Position numbers and translations under genes: made by a program
Notes under the pieces: generated by a model
Database searches by the model: none
What the model saw: only the letters and a program-made list of their open reading frames with translations
Told to the model about the DNA's origin: nothing
In this document: positions 27,524 through 54,127 of the stretch, piece by piece
How positions within the stretch are numbered: the stretch's first letter is position 1
How the letters are laid out: the number at the start of each line of letters is the position of its first letter
Assembly (NCBI GenBank): GCA_015501075.1
Contig: JADNYJ010000083.1
Span: forward strand, 62,001 to 126,000
Length of the DNA: 64,000 nucleotides
Direction of reading: 5' to 3'
Origin: Gymnopilus junonius
Taxonomy: Eukaryota; Basidiomycota; Agaricomycetes; Agaricales; Galerinaceae

Positions 27524-29249
27524 TCAAGGCTGCTCCCTTCCCAACTTCAACTCCCAAACGCCCTTCTGACCCCTCACCAACCCCTCAAACACACACTTCT
27601 CACCCAAAAAGTCGACCTGCAAAACTCCTCTCTGGACCAACTCCGGTGCGCCCTTCACCCTCTCCTGGAACGTCTTGGTGAGCGCCGCCCTCTCCTGTTC
27701 GCCCAGTTCCTCGTTCCAAAAGTGTCTTGGGTGGATGCTGGTATGGAGCTGGGCGTGCATCTGTGATAGGATGTCGAAGACAGTCACGCCGTTTGGGTGG
27801 GACTGGGTGATGTCGATGTACCAGGGGAAACGGGGATGAGAGAGACGCATGAACGCGCAGGTGGGCTGGACGGCGAGCTGGGCAAAGTCGATGTGGTTGG
27901 CGAGACGGTGGCCGGGGAGGTTGAGGAATTCGACGTCCCGAGGATCGAAGGTGGTGATACGCAGGTCGTAGTAGATGGGCGGGTTGGAGGGGTCATAAGT
28001 GAGTAACGGGTGTAGATGCCGGCGGACGGGGTCGTTCCATTCTGTATAAACATGTGAGCAGTGGGGATATATGCATGAGCTACGCGTACCTTTGACAGAG
28101 GACCGGTTCTTATACACGATATTGGGTATATACGCGCCGAGCCCGCCCTTGACGGAATAATCCGGCCTCCAGTCTCTTGGTCTCCTTGCCAGATTGTGTT
28201 CGTCGAATGTGTCGTGCTGGGCGTACTGCGGCGTGGATCCCCATTCACCCGGAGACCATCCTCCGAATCCTCCGCCGTTAGCGTTGGCGTCGACATTGCC
28301 CCATGATGCGGAACGCTGGAGGGATTTGCCACGCCTATGGGCCGCTGCGTTCGAATGGGACCTCTTGATCGTGTTGGATCGACCTAGCCTGTGGTACGCT
28401 CCGATGTCTTCTCCATCTGATTCGTGCTCGCGTCCGTGTCCGTGTCTGTGATCGCTCCTTCTTTGTCTCCCCCTCTCCTGTCCCCACGTTTCATTTTGCC
28501 ACGCACCACCACCTCCTCCCCATGTAGCACCACCACCACCTCCCCACGTACCCCCCCATCCACCATCTCCGCCTCCGCCTCCACCAAGAGCAGCACCGGC
28601 ACTAGCAGCACCAGCACCAGCACCCGCGCCGAACCATCCTCCCGTAATCGGCTGGCCTGATGAACTTTCATAGGGAGACCCAGGAGGCTGCACGGGCGCA
28701 GACGCAGGTTGGTTGTACGGAGACGGGTACGCGCCCCAAGGTGTGTACGGACTCGTAGGCTGCGCAGCCGCACCCCACCCTCCAGCCGGAGTCTGGGGTC
28801 CCCAGGATGTAGCGGGCGTCTGGCCCCATCCAGCCTGCCAAGGCGAGTGAGGCGAGGTGGGATTATACCCGTACGTCCAGCTGTGGGCGCTATTGAGCGG
28901 TGGTGCGGTGGGTGAGTTCGCCCAGCCCGCAGGGGGACCTCCGCCTCCGCCTCCTGCGGTCGAGGACGATGCCCAGGCGTTATTGGAGGGCAGTTGCGCG
29001 TTGTGGGGGTAGGGAGTGCCGTTCCCGTTGACGCGGTGTTGGTAATCACTGAAATGAGATTAGATATGAACGTAAGTAGAAGGTATCGAGTGGTGCTTAC
29101 TTTTGAAAACCCCATCCTGGACCCCACCCCGGGCCTGGCTGACCGCCATTCGTTACGCCCTGGGGTGGTGGGATGAAAGGAGGGTTCCCATAGGCTGAAT
29201 CATCGCGATCGACAAGTGGCGGTGGGCGAAGCGAATCTGGCGTAAACAT
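27524..29249 (-). CDS. DUF6699 domain protein with GW/WG-rich disordered N-terminus
   Basis: Three exons: 29249 to about 29101, about 29046 to 28090, and about 28040 to 27524, with GTAAGC and GTACGC donors. Residues 1 to about 330 are Gly/Pro/Trp-rich and disordered, with about a dozen GW or WG pairs (PGWGPGWGF, QAGWGQTP, DGGWGGTWGG, GGWSPGEWGS). The folded C-terminal half starts at AYIPNIVYKNRSSVK, continues with EWNDPVRRHLHPLL and YYDLRITTFDPRD, and ends VFEGLVRGQKGVWELKL, which is the pattern of basidiomycete DUF6699. Its function is unknown. The gene is divergent from the DYW-PPR gene with about 400 bp between start codons. Confidence 0.7.
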
Positions 29250-29649
29250 CGATATCGAGGTGGCGCTGGAAGGGTGGATTGTCGAGGGAAGTAAGGACGA
29301 TAAAAAGGAAGGGCGGAAGGTATCCAGGAGCACAGCTCCCGCCCGTACAGGAGTCTGAAAAGAAAGACACTGACAGCGGCAGTGTGTGTTGATCACTCAT
29401 TCCCCGTCACTATTTACATTTGTTATTTATGGGGTTACAGATACTTTCTTATAACACGCAAATTCAGATACAAGTCGAGCTCCCTATGAATACATTAACA
29501 GATACAATGATAATGGCACCGCATCCGACATACAAAGATGTAAAGAACACAAAGCCACCAGATGCTCGACAGCGCCGCAGCCATCCTCGAATTGCTTACG
29601 TGAGCGTCCCCCGCCAAACTGGCGTGCCCCATGAGAACTAAGCGAAGCG
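29250..29649. promoter_or_regulatory. Shared divergent promoter region (DUF6699 / DYW-PPR)
   Basis: The 400-bp gap between the two divergent ATGs must carry both promoters. An AT-richer core lies near 29400-29460. No TATA box in the usual position stands out. Confidence 0.35.
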
Positions 29650-31359
29650 ATGCTCGGGCGCGTCGCACGCAGCGTCCTGTGTCCACCGTTGCTGCGGCGG
29701 GCATCAGTCTATGCACGAGCCTTTGTGCACTTGGCTGGACGTCCACTGCGGAAGGGATTGCTCAAGTACGTGGACCTCGCAGAAGAACGGGATGGATATG
29801 TCGGTGGCGGTTTCTTGACCGGCCTTGTACGCAAGGCCAACAATTCAAGGGAGGTACGCGAACTCGTCGATGAAGGCGCCTGCAGGTTCAACGACACCGT
29901 TCCCTGGCAACTCCTTGCCGCCGCCGCTCAAGTCAGTGCTGGTCCCTCTGTCAATGATCCACAACTCGCCGGTACCCTCCTCGCCCGCATTCCCCCCGAG
30001 AACATTCCCCATATCCATGAAGGAGTCTTTCGTGCCGTCCTCGGGAACGCATCCAAGCACAAAAATAGCCCAGTCGCCATCAACGCCTTCCGTCTCCTCG
30101 TCGCCAGAGGCATACCGCTCATTCCTACCGACTACGCCCGCGTCATCCACAGCGGCATCGACTCACTTGACGAGGAAACCCGCCTCATGAACCAACTTTT
30201 CGAGCAGCCCTGTCCGCACGATCTAGATCCCCGCGTCATCGGTGTATTGCTCAAGACGTGCAACGCACGCCACGAATTCGACCTGGCAAGAAAAGCATGG
30301 CAGTGGGCTGCGCCGCGCCGCCACGCAAAGGTCGATGATCATGAGCTACGTTACGTGACTGCCCAGTACCTCCTTCTCTGTGGCCGAACTGGCGACATGG
30401 CGGTGGCACGACAGGTCTGGGAGAACGCCAAGAACGCCGGTATCGCCCACCTTCCCATCGTTACCGGCAGCATGCTGTCCATACTCGCCGCCCACGGCGC
30501 CGACGACGAGGTCCTCACGCTCATCAAGAACATCCCTCCCTCTTCCTTAAACTCCCACATGTTGACCGCCGCTCTCACCGCCTATTCTCACTCGGGCAAT
30601 GTCGACGCCGCCCGCGCGTTGATGGATCAAATCGAGGCCGACAATCGTCAGCCTGCCGTCGCAGATATCCGATCATACACCGCACTCGTAGATGCGTACG
30701 CACGAAGTGGTGATTTTGCATCTGCCCTGGCCATCATCGAACGTGCCAAGAGCCAAAGCAACATTGGAGAAGACAGTGTGATGTGGATGACGGTACTTGG
30801 TCCTTGTCGGCGTTTCAAGAATTTACCTGTCGCGCAGATGGCATTCGACGTGGTGAAGAGGCTTGGTTCGCCCGAGCAGCTCGCGTCAGCCTACGTCCTG
30901 ATGTCGGATGTGCACAAGGCCTGTGGTGATGTGTCTGCCGCGTCCCGCATGCAACAAGAGCGTCTGGAGAAAGGGCTTGCGAAGGAGCGGGGTGCTGTGA
31001 CACTGTCGATGGGCGATGGCAAGACACATGTCTTTCATGTCAGGGAGATCCCGCCGGAGTTGTCCCATGCCTCGAGCGCCATCCACCGGAAGCTTGAGGA
31101 ATGGAGCCTTTGGCTGGCGGCATGTCGTGTCAGTGATGAGTCTATCCAATGCCAACATAGCGAGAAACTTGCGTTGGCATACGCAATCACGCAAGGCATG
31201 AGCCATGTAGTACTACGGAAGAACCTGCGGATATGTGGGGCTTGTCATGAGGTGTCCAAACAAATTACAGTCCTGGAATCCATCTCGATCTACCATTGGG
31301 ATAGGTCGAGAGTACATATTATAGAGGATGGGAAGTGCTCTTGTAATGGTCGATACTGA
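29650..31359 (+). CDS. PPR protein with C-terminal DYW-type cytidine deaminase domain
   Basis: Single exon, 569 residues. The first 37 residues are Arg-rich with almost no acidic residues (MLGRVARSVLCPPLLRRASV), a good mitochondrial presequence. Several pentatricopeptide repeats follow, for example DIRSYTALVDAYARSGDFAS, SHMLTAALTAYSHSGNVDAA and LRYVTAQYLLLCGRTGD. An E-motif-like stretch comes next (ASAYVLMSDVHKACGDVSAA). The last 130 residues match the DYW deaminase: PG-box-like VTLSMGDGKTHVFHV, then HSEKLA (zinc His503, catalytic Glu505), KNLRICGACH (Cys529, Cys532, His533), and DRSRVHIIEDGKCSC (His556, Cys563, Cys565). All known zinc ligands of plant DYW domains are present. It ends in NGRY instead of DYW. 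In plants such proteins convert specific C to U in organelle RNA; by inference this one edits a mitochondrial transcript. The lack of introns is unlike its neighbours. Confidence 0.9.
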   Translation: MLGRVARSVLCPPLLRRASVYARAFVHLAGRPLRKGLLKYVDLAEERDGYVGGGFLTGLVRKANNSREVRELVDEGACRFNDTVPWQLLAAAAQVSAGPSVNDPQLAGTLLARIPPENIPHIHEGVFRAVLGNASKHKNSPVAINAFRLLVARGIPLIPTDYARVIHSGIDSLDEETRLMNQLFEQPCPHDLDPRVIGVLLKTCNARHEFDLARKAWQWAAPRRHAKVDDHELRYVTAQYLLLCGRTGDMAVARQVWENAKNAGIAHLPIVTGSMLSILAAHGADDEVLTLIKNIPPSSLNSHMLTAALTAYSHSGNVDAARALMDQIEADNRQPAVADIRSYTALVDAYARSGDFASALAIIERAKSQSNIGEDSVMWMTVLGPCRRFKNLPVAQMAFDVVKRLGSPEQLASAYVLMSDVHKACGDVSAASRMQQERLEKGLAKERGAVTLSMGDGKTHVFHVREIPPELSHASSAIHRKLEEWSLWLAACRVSDESIQCQHSEKLALAYAITQGMSHVVLRKNLRICGACHEVSKQITVLESISIYHWDRSRVHIIEDGKCSCNGRY

Positions 31360-32127
31360 ATGTGTGTATGTGTTATAGACTGGGCAGTTGCTCTGGCAGA
31401 CTTTAACCTATTAACTTTGTTTACTTAGCTCTACCCCTCTACCCTTCCTTTTATAGCTATATTCTTCTTTCCTCCCTTTCTTCCCTCCTTTCTTTTCTCC
31501 TACTCACTTTCCTACATGAGCTGCCAGAGAGTACACAGGTCTAGTTCCACGCTTATCTGAAGATGCGAGGTGTTGATCGCAGATTTTGACGCTTTGACTG
31601 GAGTGCCAAATGGGTGATGGGGCGTGACATAGCATCACAGGAAGGTCTGCGCTTTATTATATAATTTAAGATAATGTTTTTCGTCACATGCTTTGAAATC
31701 CTGGCAGAGAATCCTCGCGAACCGCAGTCAGGATACTGGTACCTTGGCCACCCTCCAGACAGCGATTGCTCTGACTCTCCATTGCTTTGCATAACCTCTT
31801 TCCTCATTGACAGATTATGATTTAACCTCAAAATTGGAAAATAGAAGGCTAAGACTCAGATGTAACTGACAATAAGGGGGTCAATTGAGATGAAAAATCT
31901 CATCTTGTGCAAGACGAAGGTGTACCACTGCTGCTTGTGCTCTATCCCACCATCCAAGCTCTAGGACACAGATACAGCAGCCTATCAAGCTGTGTCCAAA
32001 TTAGGATTTAATCTTTCTGACTGTTGAAACTGTCAACACGTTCACTTACAACTGTCAAAGGGTCCTTTCTTGCCTCTCGCGTTGTCCAATCGCATTGTCC
32101 AGTAATCATTCTATTCACGTTTCAGGG
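31360..32127. other. Spacer between last arm gene and subtelomeric array
   Basis: No gene seen. Pyrimidine-rich 3' flank of the DYW-PPR gene, then unremarkable sequence up to the first telomere-like hexamer at 32128. Confidence 0.4.
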
Positions 32128-32488
32128 TTAGGGTGGTGGTGGTGTACTGCAACTGAAGGCCGGGGGGCGCTACGGACAATGCGGGGAATTGGGGAAACTC
32201 CCATCCACATTTCGCCATTTTTATGGCTCTTCAGGTCCTTTGTAGCTATTTGCAAAAAAGGTTATTTCCGTCTCGGCTTGCTTAGCAAGCATGGACGGCA
32301 TATTACAAAGCGAACGGAGATAATTACCAAGCCCGAATCGGGCTTACTGATCAACCCCGAAAGGCTGAATCAGCAAAGTTACCTTAAGTGGTAATTCTGT
32401 TCGGAAAACCAAATATTGCCAAATATTTGACAATATCGGTAACTATTTATATTCCGAAAAGGCTAAATAAGGTAAGCAACCAGGCCCG

Positions 32489-32512
32489 GGTCTAGGCCGA
32501 AAGGCCTAGACC
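32489..32512 (-). other. 3'-UTR hairpin of element copy 1 (GAAA loop, plus strand)
   Basis: GGTCTAGGCC, then GAAA, then GGCCTAGACC: a perfect 10-bp stem with a tetraloop. It sits at the same relative place as the 14-bp stem at 37347-37380 in copy 2, although the stem sequences differ. Confidence 0.6.
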
Positions 32513-33812
32513 TATGGCCACGTGATTTCTATTATTAATAATATCATGTGGCCACGCACCTGACCATGCCACGTGACTTCGGATAATACCGAAGTGTGGT
32601 TATGTTTGGTTAGGGCTTTGGTTAGGCTATACGGATAAATATTTAGCTACTCCGTTGGATTTCAACTAAGGAACTTTAGTCGAATGTACGTACGTTAGGT
32701 TTTGGTTAGGGGAAACCGACACATCGCATGTCTTTAACACCTCCTGGATTCTCCAGGCAGTAATTCCAAGTACTGACCGTACATACCTGCTTGTATATGT
32801 AACGAATAAATTTAATTAAACGCCAAAAAATGGTTCTATGTCTGGATGCTTTCATCGCATCGACACCGTCGGAATGCCAATCGCCGTGCGAACCGCACAG
32901 CAATCTGTTTACACATTGTTGGTAAGAGGGGTCTGGTGGGTAATTGGTTTTTAATTGGCGTTTCGGCGTTAGCTTCAACTCCCAAACGTGCACCAGGGTT
33001 GGTCCTCAAACTCGCGTAGAGCGTGCAAGGGGGGTATATCCCTTCCAAAGAGTACTGGTCTATTAGGTCGACGTCCATTTGGACTACCAGATATGCCTGT
33101 GCTCGTTCGTCCTACAGTTAGGCTACTCTCTGGGCTGAAGCGCGTGGTCCTTGTCACTACGTCGACTGTCGGGGTTGCCCCCTCCCAAACGCAACAGCTT
33201 TCAACACATTACTATAACTCTACTACCAGCACATTATCTGAGATGGGATAGCTTCCCTAAGTCAGGTGTTGGTGATTTGTGTAACTTTCCAAACTTCTCG
33301 GATCTAGTAAGGTACATGGAGTGCTTACGCCGTCCACGCACGCCCAAAGGTCAAAAGCCGATGGTCCGACGTCCGTTCATCGCAGATTCTGTTCCAGGGT
33401 GGACTTGGGTTCGCCGAAGCTCCCAGCCCGGTGCTACTCCCAGGTTTCCGCCTGGCAGCAAAGACATCATACGCAGTTTAGACGCTCGGGAAAGCCTCGC
33501 CGAAGCTACTACAATCCGTACTAGAATACCACGCATGACCGCTTGCACAGTGTAATCGCCAGAAGCGCTCGCCAGGTTGGTACGCCATGGTCTGGAATTT
33601 AAACAGAACGACAGAGTGGAATTAAACGTGAGGTATTAGCTCACCGCTCCACTACCGGCGCTAAAGATCGTCAAAGCGAGATTGGTATTTCAGTAGGCCT
33701 ACCAAAAGGCTCCCAATTCTGCTCGCGACTCATTTCTAAAGCTGCTATACCGGCAAGGCGTCGCTTGCACGGTTGGAAAGGCATCCCTAAGATGCCGAAT
33801 TGAATCAGCAAA

Positions 33813-36800
33813 TTAGACATTGTCTAGGAAGAACTGCGGTCCTGCCTGCCACTCCAGGTCCATTTCATCATGGATAGGATCGATGCGACCAGTCCAGCCC
33901 TCGTCCTCTTCTGAGGGGGGATCTGACATTTCTACGTCGTCATCTTCAAGGGGTGGGGGGTTATTGACCGTGTTCGAAACATCTTCCTCGAACCGATGTA
34001 AGACTGTCTTTTTCCAAAGACTTGTAAGGTCGAATAGGTTGCGCTTCCGTTTGCGCGAAACTATCATTCGACGGTTTGTAATATTGATCTTTCTTATATC
34101 TGGTACTTCAACAGTGCCATCCGAAGTTTGCATCCGAGTTGTTAGGCTCGAATGGACCTCCGAAAGTCCCTGCCAGGACCCAGATACAAGCGGGTACTTT
34201 GCGTTAAGCTTTCCCCTAGCCAGGGATGCATCATTTGCATCCGCATATTGCTGCCAATATTGCAGGACAGTCTCACCAAGTTTAGTGGCGTTGAAATAAT
34301 TCCACGCGGTATTAAATTCTGACTTAAGCACGAGAACTTCATCGTGCTCTGGGCTGGAATCTGGTGTTTCCGTTAGCCTCTTTTCCCATCGTTCTGAGAT
34401 ATATTTCTTAAGCCATGAATATACCAGATCACTCGGGTAACCACGCGCACAGTATAGCCCTGCTAAAGAACTAAGTGCTTCTCGGTAGTTTGTAAACGTA
34501 CTACTGAGGGTGGCTAACCTACTCATCTCCCCTATAAAGGTACCTCGCTTAACATCGAGGGGGTGATGACTGATCCATGGAACCCTTTCTTGATGGTTGC
34601 GCGCCTTACGATACGGCTTGTATTGTAGTGATCCGTTATGGATATACAAAAACATGTCTAGGAATGGACTATGAGAGTCCGACGCGTTCCATTCTATTGT
34701 ACATTCGGCGATTTTACGCAACTAACAATATCAAGCGCCTCTTGTTCCGAAGAGGCGTAAACTATTGCTAGAGCATCGTCGATATACCGTCCGTAGAAAG
34801 CTACGTTCGGATGGTCTAATATTTTGCATTGGCGTTCATCTTCCCAAGCGTAAAGATTGGCAAGATCGGGGGAGTCTGCTACACCCATAGCTAGCCCCCG
34901 TTTTTGAAGCCAATACGTATTATCGTACTGTACAACTAAATCCTTATTTCCTAAATTCAGAGCGTCAAGAAACAGCTTTTGAAAATCAAGCTGATCTTGG
35001 CTGAGTTCGTTTGGTTCGCCCACGCGATTATAATAATCCCAAAGCCAGAATGTGCCAATACGCTTAAGGCAGGCGTCAATCGGGATATTTGGATAATATG
35101 CGACCACGTCCCCAGTCACTATAAATAGTTTACGTCCGGGTTGGAAATGGATTTTACTTAATTTTATCGCCAGGTCTTTAGTACCATGAATAATGGTTGG
35201 CGCCTTTCTTACGAGAGGTTTAAGATTTTTGGAGACAAACTTTGCCGCAGGATTGATAATAGCGCTGTGGCATGGTACAATAGGCCTCATTTTAACGGGT
35301 TCTTTGTGAATTTTGGGAATACCGTAAAACTGAGGAACGTTATGTTTACCAAACAGACGTTTTCCGCCAGCGCCCATTTTAAAGGGAGTTACCTGGGATC
35401 GTAAAAATCGTCCTAACTGCGTATGACCGAGATTTTCAGCCAAGAGTGCGAGTTCAAGCATATTCTCGCATTGTTTGTCTAAAAGACGTACAGCTACCAG
35501 AGGGTTAAGAGGTGTATAATTCTTTTCATCTGATAGCAAGTCTCGACATCGTTCAATGACCCACTCTCGCTTAGAGACCGCTATCCCTAAGTTCTTATCG
35601 GTGTTGGTAACTACTAAATCGTTATCAACTAAGTACTTCTCTAATCGGCGTCGGTGTGGCGCAAGCGAAGATTTAACTACGTCAACTTGCTCAGCAGGAA
35701 TATTCGCTATGGTGCGATGCACCAAGAGCTGTCCTTGCTTGAGCCCGAGTTCGAGATAATGCGGCAACAGTGGCGGCATTTTCTGAGATGGTTCTTTGTC
35801 CACCTCATAGTCTGGATCATATTCCGAATTGTCTTCGGCTTTAAACGAGAAAAAGAGTCGCCATCTAATTCTACGAGTAAAATCTTTCCAAGCTTCTAAA
35901 TTAACTTAGAATTTCTCGGGGAATGCATCATATAACGCATTCCGACACTTAAATCGTGTTCTAATTCACGCGAGATGTTCACTCCAGGGGAACAATGTAC
36001 ATAGTTTCTGAATTGGGACGCCTCTAATATATTTACAGGTGTATTCAACAGTACATAATTAACTGCGGAGGGAAAACTGATTGTAGCAACCAATCAGGGT
36101 AGGAAGAAGGATCATCGTACCTTAAGACCTTATGCAGGTCGCTGCCGTCCATGCCCAGTGGACGGCCGAGTCCGGAGCCGCTCGAGTTAGCGGAAAACAC
36201 ACCGGACCTCCCCACCTCCCCACTATGGGGTACCTGTCCGTCCAAGCGCCGTTTACTTGGAGGGCCGGCTGCGTGTCGATCCTTGCCCTTGCGAGGCTTC
36301 TTCGGCACGTCTGCCCGTCGTTTGCCTTCCTTGACGGCGGCGGTTCGGGCTTTCTCGCGTTTGCGCTCCGAAGCTCCGGCGGCCTTGAATGTCGCCTTGT
36401 GGCCTGTCGCCTGGCGTTTCTGTCGATTCGTCATTTTGGGCGTACGGGGAGCGGGTCGGTCGAGTGCGCGCATTGCTGCACGCAACTCGGCGGAGTTGCT
36501 TACCACCTTGTTCGCCGGTTGTTCGAACGCTGCGTGATGCGCCAAAACCGGTAGATGAGTAGTGGAAAGCTTTTTATAAAGGTGCGGACTCACCGTAGGC
36601 TGCACCTTTTTAAGTCGAGCCGCGACTGCTCGGTCCACCATAGACTGGATGGACGGGCCGGGTTTGGTACCATCGGCCATCTCGACATCGACCGTCTTAG
36701 CGATCTCCTTCTTGCGCTCGATACGGAGCGCTGCGTCACGTGTCGTCCTTCGACGATAGAGATGGCGCGGAAGGCGAAGCTACGACGTCCTCGCGTATTT

Positions 36801-36955
36801 GCAAGGACTGGTCCACCGCCAGTTGGCTGACTGCCCAACCGGTGACTTCGATTTCACCGGGTTCGCCCCCTTCACGGGCGCGAACAACCATATCTTTCCG
36901 GAGCAAGCACCGACTGACGCGAGCGTCCAGGGCGCCTTTGACCCGGTTGTACATG
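33813..36955 (-). CDS. Penelope-like reverse transcriptase polyprotein, copy 1 (frame interrupted)
   Basis: An N-terminal region of about 300 residues is basic (KRRADVPKKPRKGKDRH), probably nucleic-acid binding. The RT follows: TNTDKNLGIAVSKREWV (the DKG-like motif), FYGIPKIHKEPVKMRPIVP, VTGDVVAYYPNIPID (motif A Asp), LAMGVADSPDLANLYAWEDE (motif B) and YGRYIDDALAIVY (motif C, catalytic DD). Next come a thumb with WISHHPLDVKRGTFIGEMSR and an acidic C-terminus with no GIY-YIG endonuclease. The frame breaks near 36690, 36070, 35890 and 34725. At the last one copy 2 reads GTAAAAATCGCC and this copy GTAAAATCGCC. Two others also fall in T runs. Confidence 0.75.
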
Positions 36956-37217
36956 GCTTCGGGCTCCACAATCCCTCGACGATTCGAGCGGTTCAGGGTG
37001 GTGAGTTGGTTAGGGTGGTGGTATTCTGCAACTGAAGGCCGGGGGGCTGTTACGGACAAGTGGGAACTTGGGGGACAAATTCCATCCACTTTCGCCTTTT
37101 TAAAGGCTCTTCAGGTCCTACAGCGATCACGCTGAGTTAATATCTGGAGCGATTTACTTACGAAATCCGCCTAGGATTAATAATCCTACAAGGATTCGAT
37201 TACTCAGACCGAGGCGG

Positions 37218-37248
37218 GCTCAGTCAGCACCGAAGGGGCTGACTGAGC
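37218..37248 (-). other. 3'-UTR hairpin of element copy 2 (11-bp stem)
   Basis: GCTCAGTCAGC, a 9-base loop ACCGAAGGG, then GCTGACTGAGC. Copy 1 has a weaker palindromic counterpart at 32346-32373 (CTGAT ... ATCAG around CCCCGAAAGG). Confidence 0.5.
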
Positions 37249-37346
37249 GCACCGGGGTACGATGAGCAATCGACTTTACACCGGGTCGAAGAGTCACTCG
37301 ACTCCGTCCGGCGTTGGCCGAGAAATTTCAAGCGCCGCCTTGATCT

Positions 37347-37380
37347 GCTTAGGTAACGGGGCTAGGCCCGTTACCTAAGC
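37347..37380 (-). other. 3'-UTR hairpin of element copy 2 (14-bp stem)
   Basis: GCTTAGGTAACGGG, loop GCTAGG, then CCCGTTACCTAAGC: a perfect 14-bp stem. It occupies the position of the hairpin at 32489-32512 in copy 1 with a different stem sequence. Confidence 0.6.
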
Positions 37381-38597
37381 TGGTCACGAGTATTCTATTT
37401 TAAGAAGAAACATGTGAGCAAACCATAAATAGTACTGTCACGTGCCTAATGGACTTAGGACTTTTCGTGCTTTATGGCTAGATTAGGCTTAGCTTGAGGG
37501 ATAATTGTATCAGCTATCCTTGTGTATTCTATCATTACAATAGATGGTACGTACGGTTGGGTTCGGTTAGGGTGAAGCTTTAACAAGGTTCGAACGCTCT
37601 GGCCTTAGGCCAGCAGTGAATCCAAGCACCGACCACACATAACCGTGGATAAATTAATCGTAACTGGTTTAACGCCAGTAAATAGTTCTACGCATAGTGT
37701 CAAAATGACCGCTCTTAGTCTGTTTACAGATTCTGGCATCGATATCGACCGGTAATTGGTTTTCCATGCACGACAGACGAATCTGTCTCCCAAATATAGG
37801 TCGGGTGCGCATCGATGTTAAAGCGTATCGGCGTGCGTGGGTTTGATCCCTTTCCGTCGAGTGCGAGTGCTTAAGTTGGGCCCCCGTAGGGTACTCGCCG
37901 TACATCCAGACCGTCCAAGACATCCGCAAACATCTCTTTCGATGGGACACGTACACTCCCGGGACAATTCATACGAGGTTTTATCAATGGTCGGGAAACA
38001 AATCCCTCCCTCAATATATATTGTCGCCGCACTAGCGCTTTAAGCCACACGGGCTGAATCCGATACTACCAAGCTTTTAATCTCAACGTCTATTTGTGCG
38101 CCTCTACCAAAAGAGGCATTGGGCGGGCATAAGCGGATGAGTGTTGGTGTAACTGTAACGTTCCAAACTTCTCTCGTCTATCTCAGGGACCGAAGTACTC
38201 AAGAGCTAATAACGAGTGCATCGCAGATTCAGACATATTAACGATGGATTTAATGCCCCGAAGGGACTCCCAGTCTACGCCGACCTTCCAAGATCCGACT
38301 CCCAGGCCTCGCCCAGCGCCTCGCCAATTAAGACTACTACACCGAGCTACTACTCCAGAAGACATCAACAAGGCGTCCAGTGAATTGGTAGGTACCATCC
38401 GCTCGAAAGCGTTTGTTTTATATGTCCGAACGACAAGAGGGATCCTGTTCAGCGCCTATAGGGCGCTTATTAAGCAATCCAACAATGCAGCAGCGAGTCC
38501 GCCAAATTTGGGTTTTAGCAATCACGCTAGCGCCGAAGCTCCCCTTTAAGGCATCATACAAGCCGTCCGCCTACATTAGAACGTCGCCAAGTGGCAA

Positions 38598-41297
38598 TTA
38601 TGCGTTGTCTAGGTAGAACTGTGGTCCTGCTGTCCACTCCATATCCATTTCATCATGGATTCGATCGAGACGAGCCGCCCGTTGATCCTCTTCCTCTTCA
38701 GAGGACGGGTCGGACATTTCAGTGTCGTCATCATCATGGGGTGGACCCTTTTGGACCAGTTCCGAAGCATCTACCTCGAACTGATGTAAAACGGTCTTTT
38801 TCCAAAGACTAGTTAAGTCGAATAGATTGCGGGTTCGTTTCCGCGAAACTATCATTCGACGATTGGTAATATTGATCTTTCTGATATCCGGCAACTCTTC
38901 AAGTCCTTTAGAAGTCGCATCCGAGTCAAAAGGCTCGAATGGACCTCAGATAGTCCTTGCCATCCACCGTCTACCAGCGGGTACTCAGGATTAACCTTTC
39001 CCCTACCTGCTGATTCCTGATTAGAATCAGCATATTTGTGCCAATATTGTAGAACCGTTTCACCAAGTTTACTGGCGGAAAAGTAATTCCATGCAGTGTT
39101 ATACTCGGTTTTCAGAACCAGAACGTCATCGTGCTCTGGCTTGTCTGTAGCTTCAGAAAGCCTTTTCTCCCAGCGTTCTGAGATATGTTTCCTGAGCCAA
39201 GCATACACTAGATCACTCGGATAACCACGCGCGCAATACAGGCCTGCAAGTGCCGAAAGCGCATCTCGATAGTCCGTGAATTGACTACTGAGGGTGGCCA
39301 GCCTACTCATCTCTCCGATAAATGTGCCTCGCTTAACGTCGAGCGGATGATGACTGATCCATGGAATTCTTTCCTGATGGTTACGTGCCTTACGGTACGG
39401 ACGATGTTGCAGCGCGCCTTTCGCGTCGATATATAGCATCATGTCCAGGAACGGAGCAAAGTGATCCGACACGTTCCATTCTATAGTACATTCGGCGATT
39501 TTTACACAACTAACTATACCAAGCGCCTCCTCTTCGGAAGAGGCGTAAACAATAGCTAGTGCGTCGTCGATATAACGCCCGTAGAAAACTACTTTGGGGT
39601 CATCTAAGATACCGCATGTTCTCTCATCTTCCCAAGCATAAAGATTGGCAAGATCCGGGGAGTCAGCTACACCCATAGCTAAGCCCCGTTTTTGGAGATA
39701 AAACATATTATCATACTGTACTACCAGATCCCGATTACCAACGCTCAGAGCGTTCACGAACAATTGTTCAAATTCAATTTGTTCGGGCTGGAGCGTGTTA
39801 CGCTCACCAACTCTACCGTAATAATCCCATAACCAAAAAGTCGCAATACGCTTAAGACATAAGTCAATGGGTATATTAGGGTAATAAGCTACAACATCTC
39901 CAGTAACTATATAAAGTTTACGTCGAGGTTGGAACTGGATCTTACTTAATTTTATCGCCAAGTCTTTAGTTCCGTGTATAACGGTTGGCGCACCTTTTAC
40001 GAGGTGTTTAAGGTTTTTAGAGACAAACTTCGCAGCGGGATTTATTATAGCGCTGTGACAAGGTACTATTGGTCGCATTTTTACAGGTTCTTTGTGAATT
40101 TTAGGAATCCCATAAAACTGCGGTACGCTATGTTTACCATATTTACGTTTTCCATCAGGTAGTGACTCGAAAGGAGTTACCTGCGACCGTAAAAACGTTG
40201 ATAATTGTTCAAGGCCAATGGCCTTGGCTGCGATCGACAGATCGAGCATATTATCGCATTGTTTGTCTAAGAGACTATATGCTGTCAGAGGGTTAAGAGG
40301 TGTATAAGTAGATACATCTGATAGCAAGTCCGACATCTTTCAACGACCCACTCTCGCTTTGAGACCGCGATTCCCAAGTTCTTATCTGTATTGGTAACTA
40401 CATATTCATTATCAATTAAGAACTTCTCTATACGGCGACGATTAGGCGCAAGCGAACGTTTAACTACGTCTACTTTCTCCGAAGGCAAATTCGCTATGGT
40501 TTTCTTAACCAAGAGCTGACCTTTCGGAGACCGAGTTCGAGATAGAGCGGTAACAGTGGAGGCGGTTTAGAGGTCGGCTCACGCTCGACTTCATAGTCTG
40601 GATCGTATTCAGAGTTGTCTTCAGCTTGAAACGAGAATAAAAGTCTCCATCTTATTCTACGTTCAAAGTCTTTCCAGGCATCCATTATCAACTTAGGATT
40701 ACGAGGCGAATGCATCATATAACGCATTCCGACACTGAGATCTAATTCGATTTCACGCGGGATATCACTCCAGGGGACAAATGTACAGAATCTTTAAATT
40801 GGGAAGCCTCTAATACATTTACAGGCGTATTTAAAAGTACAAAATTGACTGCGGAGGGATAAGGGACTGTGAGCAACCAGTCGGGGTAGGAAGTCGGGTC
40901 ATCATACCTGAAGGGCCGTGAAAGGCCGCTGCGGTCCATGCCCAGTGGACCGCCGAGATCGGAGCCGCCCGAATTGGCGGAATACACATCCGATCCTCCC
41001 CACCTCCCCGATGAACGGGTACCAGGCCGTGAAGTGCTGATTACTTCATGAGGCCTTTGTGCTGGTCGCGCGGCTTGCGTTTCGAGCTGCCGGCGGCCTG
41101 CTCGCGTCGCTTGTTGTCCTTGACGACTTGACTGCGGCGCTTCTCGCGTGTCTCCGCCCCACGCAAGTCCCTCTTCTGGGAGGCCTTGGCGTTTCGGTCC
41201 GACTTGCGCTTCTGGTAAGGCGTCAGTTTTCGGATCGAAGGAGCGGGCCGATCGAGTGAACGCAGTACTGCGTTCAGCTCGGCGGCGTTGCTTACCC
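38598..41297 (-). CDS. Penelope-like reverse transcriptase polyprotein, copy 2 (truncated N-terminus)
   Basis: The main open frame 38852-40336 holds RT motifs in the same order as copy 1: FYGIPKIHKEPVKMRPIVP, VTGDVVAYYPNIPID, LAMGVADSPDLANLYAWEDE and YGRYIDDALAIVY with both catalytic aspartates, then the WISHHPLDVKRGTF thumb. Upstream frames (40285-40512, 40494-40727, 40742-40987) continue the same protein after one-base shifts, up to the basic region (TREKRRSQVVKDNKRREQ). The C-terminus continues in 38598-38894 (MPDIRKINITNRRM ... FYLDNA) after another one-base shift. No endonuclease domain. Confidence 0.75.
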
Positions 41298-41336
41298 CTA
41301 ATAATATAACTTTAGGACCATGGACTATGGTCCGGC

Positions 41337-48566: not shown

Positions 48567-51500
48567 CTATCTGCATAGGTTATCCAAGCTATAAAACAAA
48601 GTGACCAAGTTAGACACCTCCACCTTGACTTTTGGAGGCTGAGTAAGCCACAGTCTGAAGATATTCAGAGTGGGCCATTTCAATCCTATCAGCTCTTCCA
48701 GAAGTTCCTTGTGATTTTGATACACATAGAAAACTGTGGGAGGTATAATGTCCAGATAGCTTCCACAGGCCTTTGGGCCACCAAAGGGACCATGAAGGTG
48801 ATCCTTGAAGCTTGGAACATGGCATATCCAGCAGATGCCTTGGCCAGCATTATTGGCATACTTGAGTTCCATCTTCCAATTTATATACAGGTTGTAAGTC
48901 CCATTGGATCCAAAGGTACACTCTAAAGATATGTGGACCTAGAATAGCTGATTTCTGTCTCATCTGGATCTTCCAGTAGCAGTAGATGCAGCTCTGATAG
49001 CTGAGAAGGTTCAAGTAGTGCCTAAGGAGGTTACAGACCTGTTGCTGATCAGCTGCCAGCATAGCATCCTCCTGCTGCATTTCAAGAACTATCTGAGCCT
49101 TGGGATCATTGCTGCTGCCTAGGCTATGATGTGTGGTTGAGGAAGATGCAGCTTGGCCTGGGTAGAATTTCTTTTGCTTGGCTGCAAATCCTTGGTCTTC
49201 ACCTGAGGCTTTCCTTTTGAAAGGATTAACTGGAGGTACTAGAACAGCTGGGGCATCAGGGAATGTGAAATCTGAAGGGCTGCAGATGTTGCAGGGATGT
49301 GATCCTGCATTTTTGGAGCAGTGTATCCCTCTTCCATCATTGTATTTGGTGGTTGCCCATCTGAGACAACTAGGCCTACCAAAGACCATCTCATCTATCT
49401 CTGCTACACCCAGCAGATCATCAAAAGACTCTTCCTTGTTGTATTTATCCCATCTGGAAGTAGGAATCAGATAGCAGCTAGTATGTTTGTGGTCTCTGCC
49501 ACCTCTGGAGATCTCTTGGATATAGCACATCATCTTTCTGGGTGTGCCTGCATGAACCACCAGCCTGACTTCAGGATAGTCATTTCCACAGCTGAAGGCA
49601 GAGGTAGACACCATGATATTTCTGACTCCTGATCTCCACTCCTCTAGTATTGTTGCCCTGGTATCTTCTGGATCTGCTGAATTGTAAAAGCCACAATCCA
49701 AGTGTACAGCCAGTGGCTTTCCAATGTGATAATTGGGAACAAAGATAAGGCATCTTTCTAAGGGAGTAAACTTGTCCATATGAGGTGAAATCAGTTGCTT
49801 GACAAAGGTGCTGATATAGTTGATAGGGATGATAGGAGTTTTTAATGAGCTGGAGTTCAGGCCTGTTAGTGCTTGAGGATCTGAAAACTTGGACCTTGGG
49901 CTCCAGTTTGAATGTCTGCTTGATCATGGGCTCTGCAATAGGAGGAATGGTACCAGACAGAATGATAAAAGGGGCCACAATGCTTCTGAATCTGCTGACT
50001 TCTTTCATGACTGGCCTAAAGTCAGAATCTGTGAGAGGATACTGTCCTTCATCAAAGATGAACCTTCTGACTAGCATAAAGGACTGGTGGATCTGACTGA
50101 GCCACTGTTTCCATTGAGGCTTGCTGGCCAACTCTACAGAAACCAACACCAAGTTGGAGGAAGAGCAATCTTGCATGGCATCCTGAGCTCTGTAGTGAAA
50201 GAAGGGAATATCCATGGCCTGAGCTTTCTCTTGTAATCCAGAAGCAGGGACTTGAGGGGAAACAGAACAACAGTCATCTTGTCCTTTTTCCAATAGTGCT
50301 GGAATGATAGCAAGCATAGACTTGCCAGAACCAGTGGTGAGGATAGCCAGTATATCAGTGGTGGTATTCAAGACAGCCATCACAGCTTGTCTCTGGAGAT
50401 TGCTTGACCAATGAGCTTCCCTGTTATTCAAAAGGGATCTGAGAGCTTCCAAGGCTTGATGTTCAGACCAAAGTGGCTAATGGAAAGTCAGAAAAGATTT
50501 CATAATTTAAGATATTACACAGACTTGCCTGTTGAGCTGCAGGGGGTGTCCCCACTTGTTCCTGAGAACTAGATGGGACCAGCACTATTGGAGAAGGAGA
50601 ATTGACAGGTAATCTGTTCCCATCTTGTTCCTGGAAACTAGAGGGGAAAGATGGATACACCTCTATCTCATCTGCCTGGCAGCCCAGGGCAGAATACTGG
50701 TCTATGGGAGATGATACATTCCTACTTGATATTCTGTCTGAAATATCCATTCCAGAAGGTGGAATCCAACCAGATTGAACAAGTCCCTTCAAACTTTCCT
50801 GTACTGCCTCCTTGACCATTTGCTGAACACCTGTTTTGAGTGCTTCTAGCACACTCTGAGCAAACACATTGGGATCTAGTGCATGGGACACTGCCAAGGG
50901 GGCTTTAGCTGCAGGAGAGAAGTTGACAGGGGCTTTCTCTACATCCTTGGCCATACACTGGGAATAAGGCAACAGACTGCCTCCTCTGGATACCTGACAA
51001 ACTGCTTGCCAGTTGGTGCTATGCTGAACAAAAAGAGGCCAGATATCATCTGCAGAAGCAGAGGCCATAGCTACAGCACTGACAGCATAGATCCTGTTCT
51101 CAGTCTTTCTGGAGTGATGAGCTTGAAGTGCTCCAATGGTAGCCCCTGCAGTGTCCTGCTCAATTAGCTGCTCCATCTGAGTGTCTAGCTTTCTTCTGAA
51201 GCCAATGCTGATATGCCTCCAGTCCTGAAGGCCCATAGAGAATGCCAGAGTCTTCATGCTGAATTCCTGCAAGACAGCAGTGATCTGAATAGTTGTGAAG
51301 GCCTTGTCAAAGTTCACAAACAGCAAACTGTCATAGACTTGTTGGATGGTCTGGCTTTGTTTGAAGACCTCAAAGGCAGCCAGTTGAGCAAAAGGCCTGG
51401 CAATAACCAAGTCTTGCACTATCATGTCGGATATATGAGCATCAAATGCATGTGGAATAACCTTATCAACCAAGGTAGCAAAACTTCCTTTGTGATATTG

Positions 51501-54127
51501 GCAAAGATAAACCAAATGCTTGTTCAGCCAGAACAAGCCTCTGGATGGCCTGACAGGAATGTTTTTCCAAGTCAAAGGAACAATTTCAGTCCCCCTGGAG
51601 GCTGAGCCAGCAGTCATTTCTGCCTTTGAGAGAGCAAGTGAATGCAGTCTTGCATACTTGAGGAGCCACTTTCTGAGAGCTATAGTATTCCACAAAGGGG
51701 TCTTCCTGCCCTCTGAATCCCTGAGATGACCTTTGATAAAGATTCTTGCCAGATTCTTATCCTCATAGATGTGCTTTGCCAGAGAAGTCTGGAACTTCTG
51801 GAAGCCTGGATTCCTATGATCACTGAGGAAGGAATAGTCCACATCTGTGTTGCTCAGAGCTTCTGAGACTTGGCCATAGTCTGCTCTGATCTTGAAGCCT
51901 AAAAGAATATCCTGTTCCCAAATAGACACCATTTCCTCCTCCATCAAAGCCAGCATCTCCCTGATTTGATCCAACTTGACAGGATATCCCTTGTAGAGCA
52001 TTTCATTGAAGTTTACAGTATCTGTCCACCAGATCTTGGGCAGGCTCATTGTGGAGTAGGCTATGCTTGAACCAAGATGCTGAAGTTGTCTAAGAGAGTT
52101 GAAAGTTGAAGGACTGTGCTCAGTAAACCATTTGGAAAGCTGCTTGGCCAATTCAAAGGCAGAAGGTGGTAGATCCTGAGACTGTCTCTGCTGTGCTACA
52201 TCATAGACCATGGTCAATCTGATCAAATACTCCAACTTGGCAATGAAGGGAGTTGTCAGTGTAACTTCTTTGAATCCTTGAGGCAACTTGAGCTGGGACA
52301 GACACAGAAATCTGATAGTAGGATCAGCCATGGTATGTGTAGAGTCCTCTTCCCATTCTGTGGTCCAAAGTTGCATGCAGACTTGATGTATGACTGGCAG
52401 GCAAGTAAACTTGTTTGGGCCTCCCAACTTGTTTCTTAGAACAAGAAGGGAGGCCTTCAGATCATCAGGCAAAGTCAGAGCATAGACATCTGAAGGCCTC
52501 AACAAAAAGGAAAAGAGCTGAACCAGGACCTGGGTATACTTGAACAAAGTGGTTGCTATATTCTGATGATGGCCAAAGGGATCATTGGATATAGTACTAA
52601 AGAAAAACAAAGAAAACCTGTTAGCAGGCTGATGCATGAGAAGAAATGTAGAACAAACTTCATTAGAGGACTGTTGATCCTTTGAAGTGCTAGAAGTGGA
52701 AGACTGTCTATAGCCTTGTCAGCTGTTTGAGTGTAGGCATGGACAACTTCTATCAGAATGAAAAGATTAGGCTCTTGCTCTTGCCTGGGCAGAGCTACCA
52801 GATCCATTAGATGCTGCTGAGAGAAAGGATCTACATGGAGGTGCCATCTAGTTGCCATCAACCAAGGACTGAGCTGTCTGGGATCCACTGAGCTCATATT
52901 GAACTTTGCCAGCATTTCCTTTCTCTTTGCCTTGAAATCCTCAATCATGAAGTCAAAAGAGGTTGGAGGACTTGATTCAACAGGAGGTAGAACTTTGAAG
53001 TAGGTACTATGGTTGGAGGAATTGATCTGTTGGGCCCAAACAGGGGTATGGGAGATAGAAACTGCTGAGGTGTGAACCAGGCTGTGATGTTTTCTAAATG
53101 ATTCTTCACTGCCTCTGATATGACCACAATGATTACACTGAAGTTTTTGTGTTGGAGGTTTGAAACCTTCAATGACAAGACAGGGAGATGGCAAATCCTC
53201 AAGATTGATGTTTCTCTTGACCTCCAGCTCCTCTATAATCAGATCCAACTGAATATGATTTATTCTGAATTTGCCATCAGAGTGTGTGTTGATCAGATGG
53301 TCAGACACAGCTTTACTGCCCAAACCAATACCACAGTCCAAGCAGATAATAAGACCAAGGTAACTGTTAAAGCACAATCCAAGGCTAAGCAGATATGGCT
53401 GATTGACAAGCTAAAAGGAAAAGACAAATTAAAAAGACAGGTAAGATTCATTCTATAGATCTAGAAGTCTCAGACTTACCTGAGGTGAATGTATATTTGA
53501 AGGCTCAACCACATCTTCACACTCCTCCAGAGGAGCAGGCTACAATCTATTTAAACAACTGAAATAAACATGTTATGAACAGGCTTACCTGTTCCTCAAT
53601 TAACTGCTGTGATCTTAGGGCTGGACCTTCTTCAATCAAGTCTACCTCCATAGGTTCATCCCCAGGCATCTGTTCTTCATCTTTATCCTCACCATCAGAA
53701 AGGGTAGCAGAGTCTTTAGCTTGCAAGTCTTGGGGGCTCCCATCTTGTTTTATGGAACCAGTGGGTGGTGGTGGCTGTGTCAGAAATTCACAAATAGAAG
53801 GATCATCCTAAAGTCAAAAGTATCATTCAGACAAAGCAGAACAAAGGAAAACAGAAGGAAACTCACAATCCAGGTAGTCCAAGCCTTGAGAGATCTTCTC
53901 AGATGTTGCTGGAAGGACTTCTTGTTGGTATAGTACATGATGCCCTCATGCTCACTGCATCTGCAAGCCCATTCCCCCCTTTGATCCTTGTAAGCATAGT
54001 GAGTCTGATTGTTGTGGAGAGTGACAGTCATAGTGTTTCCATCATTCCTGCAAGTAAAAAGATGACTGTCCATCTCTTCTGCAGTAGGAAAGTGAAAGGG
54101 GCAGCAAGGGCAGTTGAAATGGAACAT
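48567..54127 (-). CDS. Zinc finger/DUF3505 - tyrosine recombinase-like - RecQ helicase fusion (TLH-like)
   Basis: Start MFHFNCPCCPFHFPTAEEMD at 54127 with a C2H2 finger; a TATATAAA is about 90 bp upstream. An acidic exon follows (53575-53811), then DUF3505-type double fingers (ICLDCGIGLGSKAVSDHLI; LQCNHCGHIRGSEESFRKHH). The exon 50463-52637 has a tyrosine-recombinase pattern: box I ASRGTEIVPLTW, LQDWRHISIGFRRK (R-H), and AHHSRKTENRIYAVS with the putative nucleophile Tyr at 51087-51089. The helicase half shows TTGSGKSML (Walker A), IFDEGQ, VSTSAFSCGNDYPEVRLVVH and YIQEISRGGRD (motif VI). It ends near 48567 after a cysteine-rich ICWICHVPSFKDHLHGPF segment. The layout is that of subtelomeric RecQ genes of fungi. 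A one-base shift lies near 49835. Four copies of the 30-bp palindrome are inside coding exons. Confidence 0.75.

Follow-up and report, generated by a model that had tools for sequence, protein, structure and literature searches.

The window, by which we mean the whole 64,000-nucleotide stretch of Gymnopilus junonius DNA analyzed here, carries a real, intact, and conserved PPR-DYW enzyme of a known, little-studied kind (Table 1). Its gene is a single open reading frame that runs from ATG to TGA and requires no intron. We consider it probable that the product acts alone as a mitochondrial C-to-U editor of one or a few sites. This reading draws on the domain layout, the modeled DYW fold, and the complete set of catalytic and zinc residues, on several gene copies in which replacement change per site is below silent change, and on one conserved full-length family that extends across mushrooms, Balamuthia, and unnamed protists. 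The sequence-only reading had described a complete PPR-E-DYW protein, probably mitochondrial, on a true fungal contig, and that description holds, with every catalytic residue in place. The chief interest of the gene is in what it can reveal about editing in fungal mitochondria, a question that a conserved, intact, multicopy enzyme makes directly testable. A single-type editor with a short array would also be a natural minimal system for studying DYW site choice and the spread of editing between lineages.

Table 1. Features of the PPR-DYW gene and its surroundings, in window positions
Feature	Positions	Strand	Remarks
Neighboring ORF, DUF6699, divergent	27527..29059	-	E 4e-27; upstream of PPR-DYW gene
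Longest unit shared with other copies	29611..31409	+	~95-96% DNA identity; shared end at 31403 or 31409 (31362 in C790); window copy sharp-ended
PPR-DYW gene	29650..31359	+	569 aa, single exon
Basic, acid-free N-terminus, predicted mitochondrial presequence, residues 1-35	29650..29754	+	8 K/R, 0 D/E; pLDDT ~30-41 over residues 1-30
Six helical hairpins, PPR/TPR-like, residues 86-301	29905..30552	+	AlphaFold2 helices; no canonical PPR code; VIA-align matches to designed PPR arrays
PPR-like motif, residues 302-339	30553..30666	+	5th residue T306 in 16/17 (fungi plus Balamuthia); last residue variable
Clear PPR at S2-like position, residues 340-375	30667..30774	+	Pfam PPR 342-367; code pair T344/D375
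E1- and E2-like motifs, residues 376-445	30775..30984	+	Alignment to 9kfx; helices in AlphaFold2 model
E2-to-deaminase link, residues 446-496, at PG-box/gating position	30985..31137	+	Model strands and helix; 7o4f match from residue 448
DYW deaminase, residues 497-569	31138..31356	+	C-terminus GRY
H503-S-E505, zinc histidine and catalytic glutamate	31156..31164	+	Kept in 26/26; presumed roles
C529-x-x-C532, catalytic zinc cysteines	31234..31245	+	Kept in 26/26; presumed roles
H556 ... C563-x-C565, ligands of second, structural zinc	31315..31344	+	Kept in 26/26; presumed roles
Two high-copy repeats, 32124-36042 and 37008-41299	32124..41299	+	Several copies elsewhere start at TTAGGGTTAGGG (e.g., C723, C866)

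The deaminase is the best-defined part of the protein. Pfam assigns DYW_deaminase (PF14432) to residues 497-567 at an E value of 9.7e-16 and 57.8 bits, against a cut-off of 24, and the DYW fold is present in the predicted model. The motifs HSEKLA, CGACH, D-x-x-R-x-H, and CSC, which had been recognized from the letters alone, were all found (H503/E505, C529/C532/H533, D551/R554/H556, and C563/C565). The residues H503, E505, C529, C532, H533, D551, H556, C563, and C565, among them the HxE, CxxC, and H...CxC residues of the DYW deaminase, do not vary across the 26 aligned proteins. We take their catalytic-zinc, catalytic-glutamate, and second-zinc roles from plant DYW biochemistry and the structures 7o4e and 7o4f. 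Among nine segments of the protein, the deaminase is the most conserved, with a mean majority of 0.91 in fungi plus Balamuthia and 0.83 across all 26 proteins. This conservation bears on whether the protein is instead a mitochondrial RNA-binding factor for stability, processing, or translation, with the DYW fold kept for structure and deamination absent or incidental. We judge that unlikely: the invariance of Glu505 and of both zinc sites and the rank of the deaminase among the segments argue against it, and a fold kept for structure alone would have no use for the conserved glutamate, even though the helical array is also similar to PPR proteins of mitoribosomes and polymerases that do not edit RNA and includes a single canonical PPR. 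The C-terminal triplet of the window protein is GRY rather than DYW, and DYW ends none of the 27 complete C-termini in the family (P0019 and P0021 set aside).

Upstream of the deaminase, the layout follows that of a solved PPR-DYW protein over part of its length. The top match among solved sequences is the synthetic PPR-DYW protein 9kfx (E value of 2.8e-34). The alignment is colinear from residue 273 to residue 566 and takes in the last PPR, the E1 and E2 motifs, and the deaminase; it is far above chance and places E1 and E2 ahead of the DYW domain. Superposition of the whole protein on 9kfx is poor (TM 0.30/0.28; 15.2 Å over 411 residues). The PPRs that had been proposed were borne out in part. 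Only PF01535 exceeds its cut-off among the Pfam PPR models, which leaves one repeat clear by sequence (residues 342-367), whereas the hairpins at residues 86-301 are PPR/TPR-like in the model and lack canonical code residues. With one PPR above the Pfam cut-off, the tandem P, L, and S motifs that mark the land-plant PLS class were not found.

The PPR code is read from the 5th and last residues of each repeat, and we applied it with motif borders set by our own reading of the model helices. T344 and D375, each present in 17 of 17 proteins from fungi plus Balamuthia, form the sole canonical and conserved code pair in the array. The last residue of motif 302-339 is D, G, T, N, or S across relatives, and position 5 of the hairpins before it is mostly A, S, R, or G. 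Sequence-specific recognition is therefore uncertain, and matching a target through the code is not feasible, since the pair is both canonical and conserved only in motif 340-375. The array is also short next to those of plants.

The window protein is predicted to enter the mitochondrion, on the basic composition of its N-terminus. The first 35 residues contain D or E in 6 of 19 family proteins, Balamuthia among them (one of the six is partial). As an editor, the protein would be imported into the mitochondrion by this N-terminus, and its helical array would contact RNA, with the last PPR (T344/D375) lying just upstream of the edited C. The E1 and E2 motifs would then hand the base to the deaminase, where hydrolytic deamination dependent on zinc and Glu505 would convert C to U. 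One or very few sites would be served, as the seven DYW matches in the genome are all of one type with one repeat array. The mitochondrial models COX1, COX3, Proton_antipo_M, and LAGLIDADG_1 had zero matches each in the assembly by exon-by-exon matching, which short exons may escape.

Each of the seven DYW matches has its own contig in the assembly (58.0 Mb, 898 contigs), and common flanks divide them into three groups: C812, which is the window copy; C267 with C723; and C167 with C40, C239, and C790. Within a group, the copies may be allelic or duplicated. The other two groups have ~165 bp more upstream sequence in common than either has with the window copy. In the window copy, the sequence held in common reaches only 39 bp upstream of the ATG, so its promoter may differ. 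Neither terminal repeats nor target-site duplications could be made out convincingly around the shared unit. Contigs C239 and C790 start, at base 1, inside the DYW gene, which looks like an assembly break at the repeated gene, and C790 parts from the other copies a few bases past the stop codon.

Sharp-ended copies raise the question of whether this is a recently spread, amplified gene without a host function, briefly kept and now decaying. Frame-breaking indels of one or two bases in three of the seven copies (C40, C267, and C790) would fit such decay, and may equally be assembly errors; changes at near-invariant sites would fit it as well. Of 234 near-invariant positions in the family, 9 are altered in the window copy, four of them in this copy alone (R11C, G493R, A535V, and M558I) and five in other copies as well; across the copies, 5 to 12 of the near-invariant positions present in each are altered, which points to moderate constraint. 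We nevertheless regard a gene without host function as very unlikely. Three copies (C812, C167, and C723) keep intact full-length frames, that of C723 with a one-base deletion and an insertion five bases apart that cancel, and none of the six other copies, when set against the open window frame, has an in-register stop. dN/dS is 0.14-0.35 in 20 of 21 copy pairs, the outlier being C167/C239 at 0.89, which rests on only 4 differences. At kappa 1-4, every one of the seven copies has fewer replacements among its private changes than expected (P ≤ 0.040); at kappa 6, C790 gives a P value of 0.053. The copy on C40 (L042) combines ten single-base indels with no in-register stop and a low dN/dS, for which assembly error is likelier than decay.

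To place the protein, we searched for relatives with the full length, a profile, and the DYW region. The full-length search returned 20 relatives from 7,999 scored candidates, the profile search returned 21 from 7,998 with one new, and the DYW-region search returned 26 from 194, adding seven more, of which two are EukProt transcripts. Named relatives are Amanita phalloides (74% identity to the window protein), Hebeloma cylindrosporum (69%), Amanita rubescens (68%, partial), and Balamuthia mandrillaris (66% over 94% of the length). This strong conservation tells against a cytidine deaminase of other RNAs, such as foreign RNAs replicating in fungal mitochondria, with loose sequence specificity, since the family is not fast-evolving. 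The gene is multicopy, lies near high-copy repeats, has a gene tree that conflicts with Amanita, and has a weak PPR code, features often seen in defense genes; even so, we think a role on such other RNAs quite unlikely. The Balamuthia protein (P0015) may reflect an amoeba-fungus transfer or a contaminated record.

In a midpoint-rooted tree of 26 rows, none of them from plants, the window protein and the three named fungal rows are split from the rest with support of 100/99. P0014 and then Balamuthia lie outside the fungal rows, with nine rows (seven unnamed, two EukProt) more distant still. Long branches were flagged for P0022, P0024, P0027, P0023, and P0026, with P0024 also flagged for composition. 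A clade of A. phalloides (P0003) and A. rubescens (P0016) is rejected (AU P value of 4.4e-15), in a test of a pair that had been spotted on an earlier tree and whose A. rubescens member is partial. This rejection makes it likely that the gene moved between mushrooms, or that it duplicated long ago and copies were later lost. The gene was probably passed among eukaryotes by transfer and then duplicated in repeat-rich, perhaps subtelomeric, regions. The GC-rich frame, once read as consistent with horizontal acquisition, gives no sign of transfer: GC3 is 0.638, against 0.630 in the adjoining DUF6699 ORF, which rules out a foreign composition of the PPR-DYW gene. A search for viral or prokaryotic carriers confirmed no relatives among its pattern matches, of which viral_contigs gave 5 and genome_contigs 12.

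All 28 proteins that contain the region between HSE and KNLR (from a set of the window protein and 28 relatives, of which P0019 lacks it) have a spacing of 18 residues there, against 20 in three plant chains. Because the closest relatives found are fungi, Balamuthia, and unnamed proteins that share a two-residue deletion of their own, acquisition from plants is not the direct reading, and a plant donor is possible but not demonstrated. No land-plant protein appears by name among the 26 DYW-region matches, in a search that depends on shared 5-letter words and so does not imply absence. A bolder proposal, possible but doubtful at present, is a portable single-protein editor: one DYW enzyme with a near-fixed short array that would have been handed on whole among mushrooms, amoebae, and other protists, would have been amplified near chromosome ends here, and would edit one conserved mitochondrial site wherever it lands. 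If true, fungal mitochondria would have DYW-driven C-to-U editing, with editing gained as a transferable trait.

The window protein shares with land-plant PLS-class factors (OTP86, DYW1, and moss PPR56) the order of S2-like PPR, E1, E2, and DYW, the DYW fold, and the catalytic and zinc residues. It differs from them in its GRY end, the two-residue deletion, and a shorter array with one canonical PPR. Plants also carry large, diversified sets of DYW editors, in contrast to the one DYW type in this genome. C-to-U editing occurs in the mitochondria of Naegleria and Physarum. PMC4202320 describes non-plant PPR-DYW proteins in Naegleria, Acrasis, Physarum, and rotifers, with C-to-U mitochondrial editing shown in Acrasis. 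None of these four names occurs among the relatives from our full-length, profile, and DYW-region searches, in which most matches are unnamed.

A DYW protein is not new to fungi: PMC4202320 names Laccaria bicolor among DYW bearers, and PMC11946409 reports DYW proteins in several Agaricales and Piloderma and calls for a study of editing. These belong to a fungal/paradinid PPR-DYW clade with the same deaminase motifs and fungal distribution as the window family, whose spacing of 18 fits the two-residue deletion (positions 43-44 of the DYW alignment) reported there for fungi and paradinids. The consulted portion of PMC11946409 makes no mention of a multicopy state, Balamuthia, the Amanita gene-tree conflict, or the reduction to one canonical PPR seen in the window family. 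PMC10532568 reports a failure to identify a PPR-DYW orthologue in Coprinopsis cinerea and Ganoderma lucidum, which suggests a patchy gene. The open-license papers listed by our literature searches included no demonstration of DYW editing in a fungus.

The repeats begin 0.7 kb downstream of the PPR-DYW gene. Long matches to them, 84-99% identical, lie on many contigs at the least, often near contig ends, and were also found on all five DYW contigs whose copy is not cut by a contig end (C812, C723, C267, C167, and C40). A sporadic family could in principle signal contaminating plant or protist DNA, which we consider vanishingly improbable and refuted for practical purposes: the gene is on seven contigs, the adjacent repeats recur on many contigs of the same assembly (best 96-99%), GC3 equals that of the DUF6699 neighbor, and the closest named relatives are mushrooms. 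The repeats are possibly telomere-associated retroelements. No long TTAGGG array was present at the contig ends inspected, and a literature search on telomeric retroelements yielded no matching paper. An ORF at 38855-40339 (-) has a reverse-transcriptase match below the cut-off (17 versus 29.6 bits); its lone PDB match (E value of 0.26) was not used. Farther along, DEAD and Helicase_C ORFs at 48853-53410 (-), with an OrsD-like ORF (below the cut-off) nearby, are possibly a telomere-linked helicase gene.
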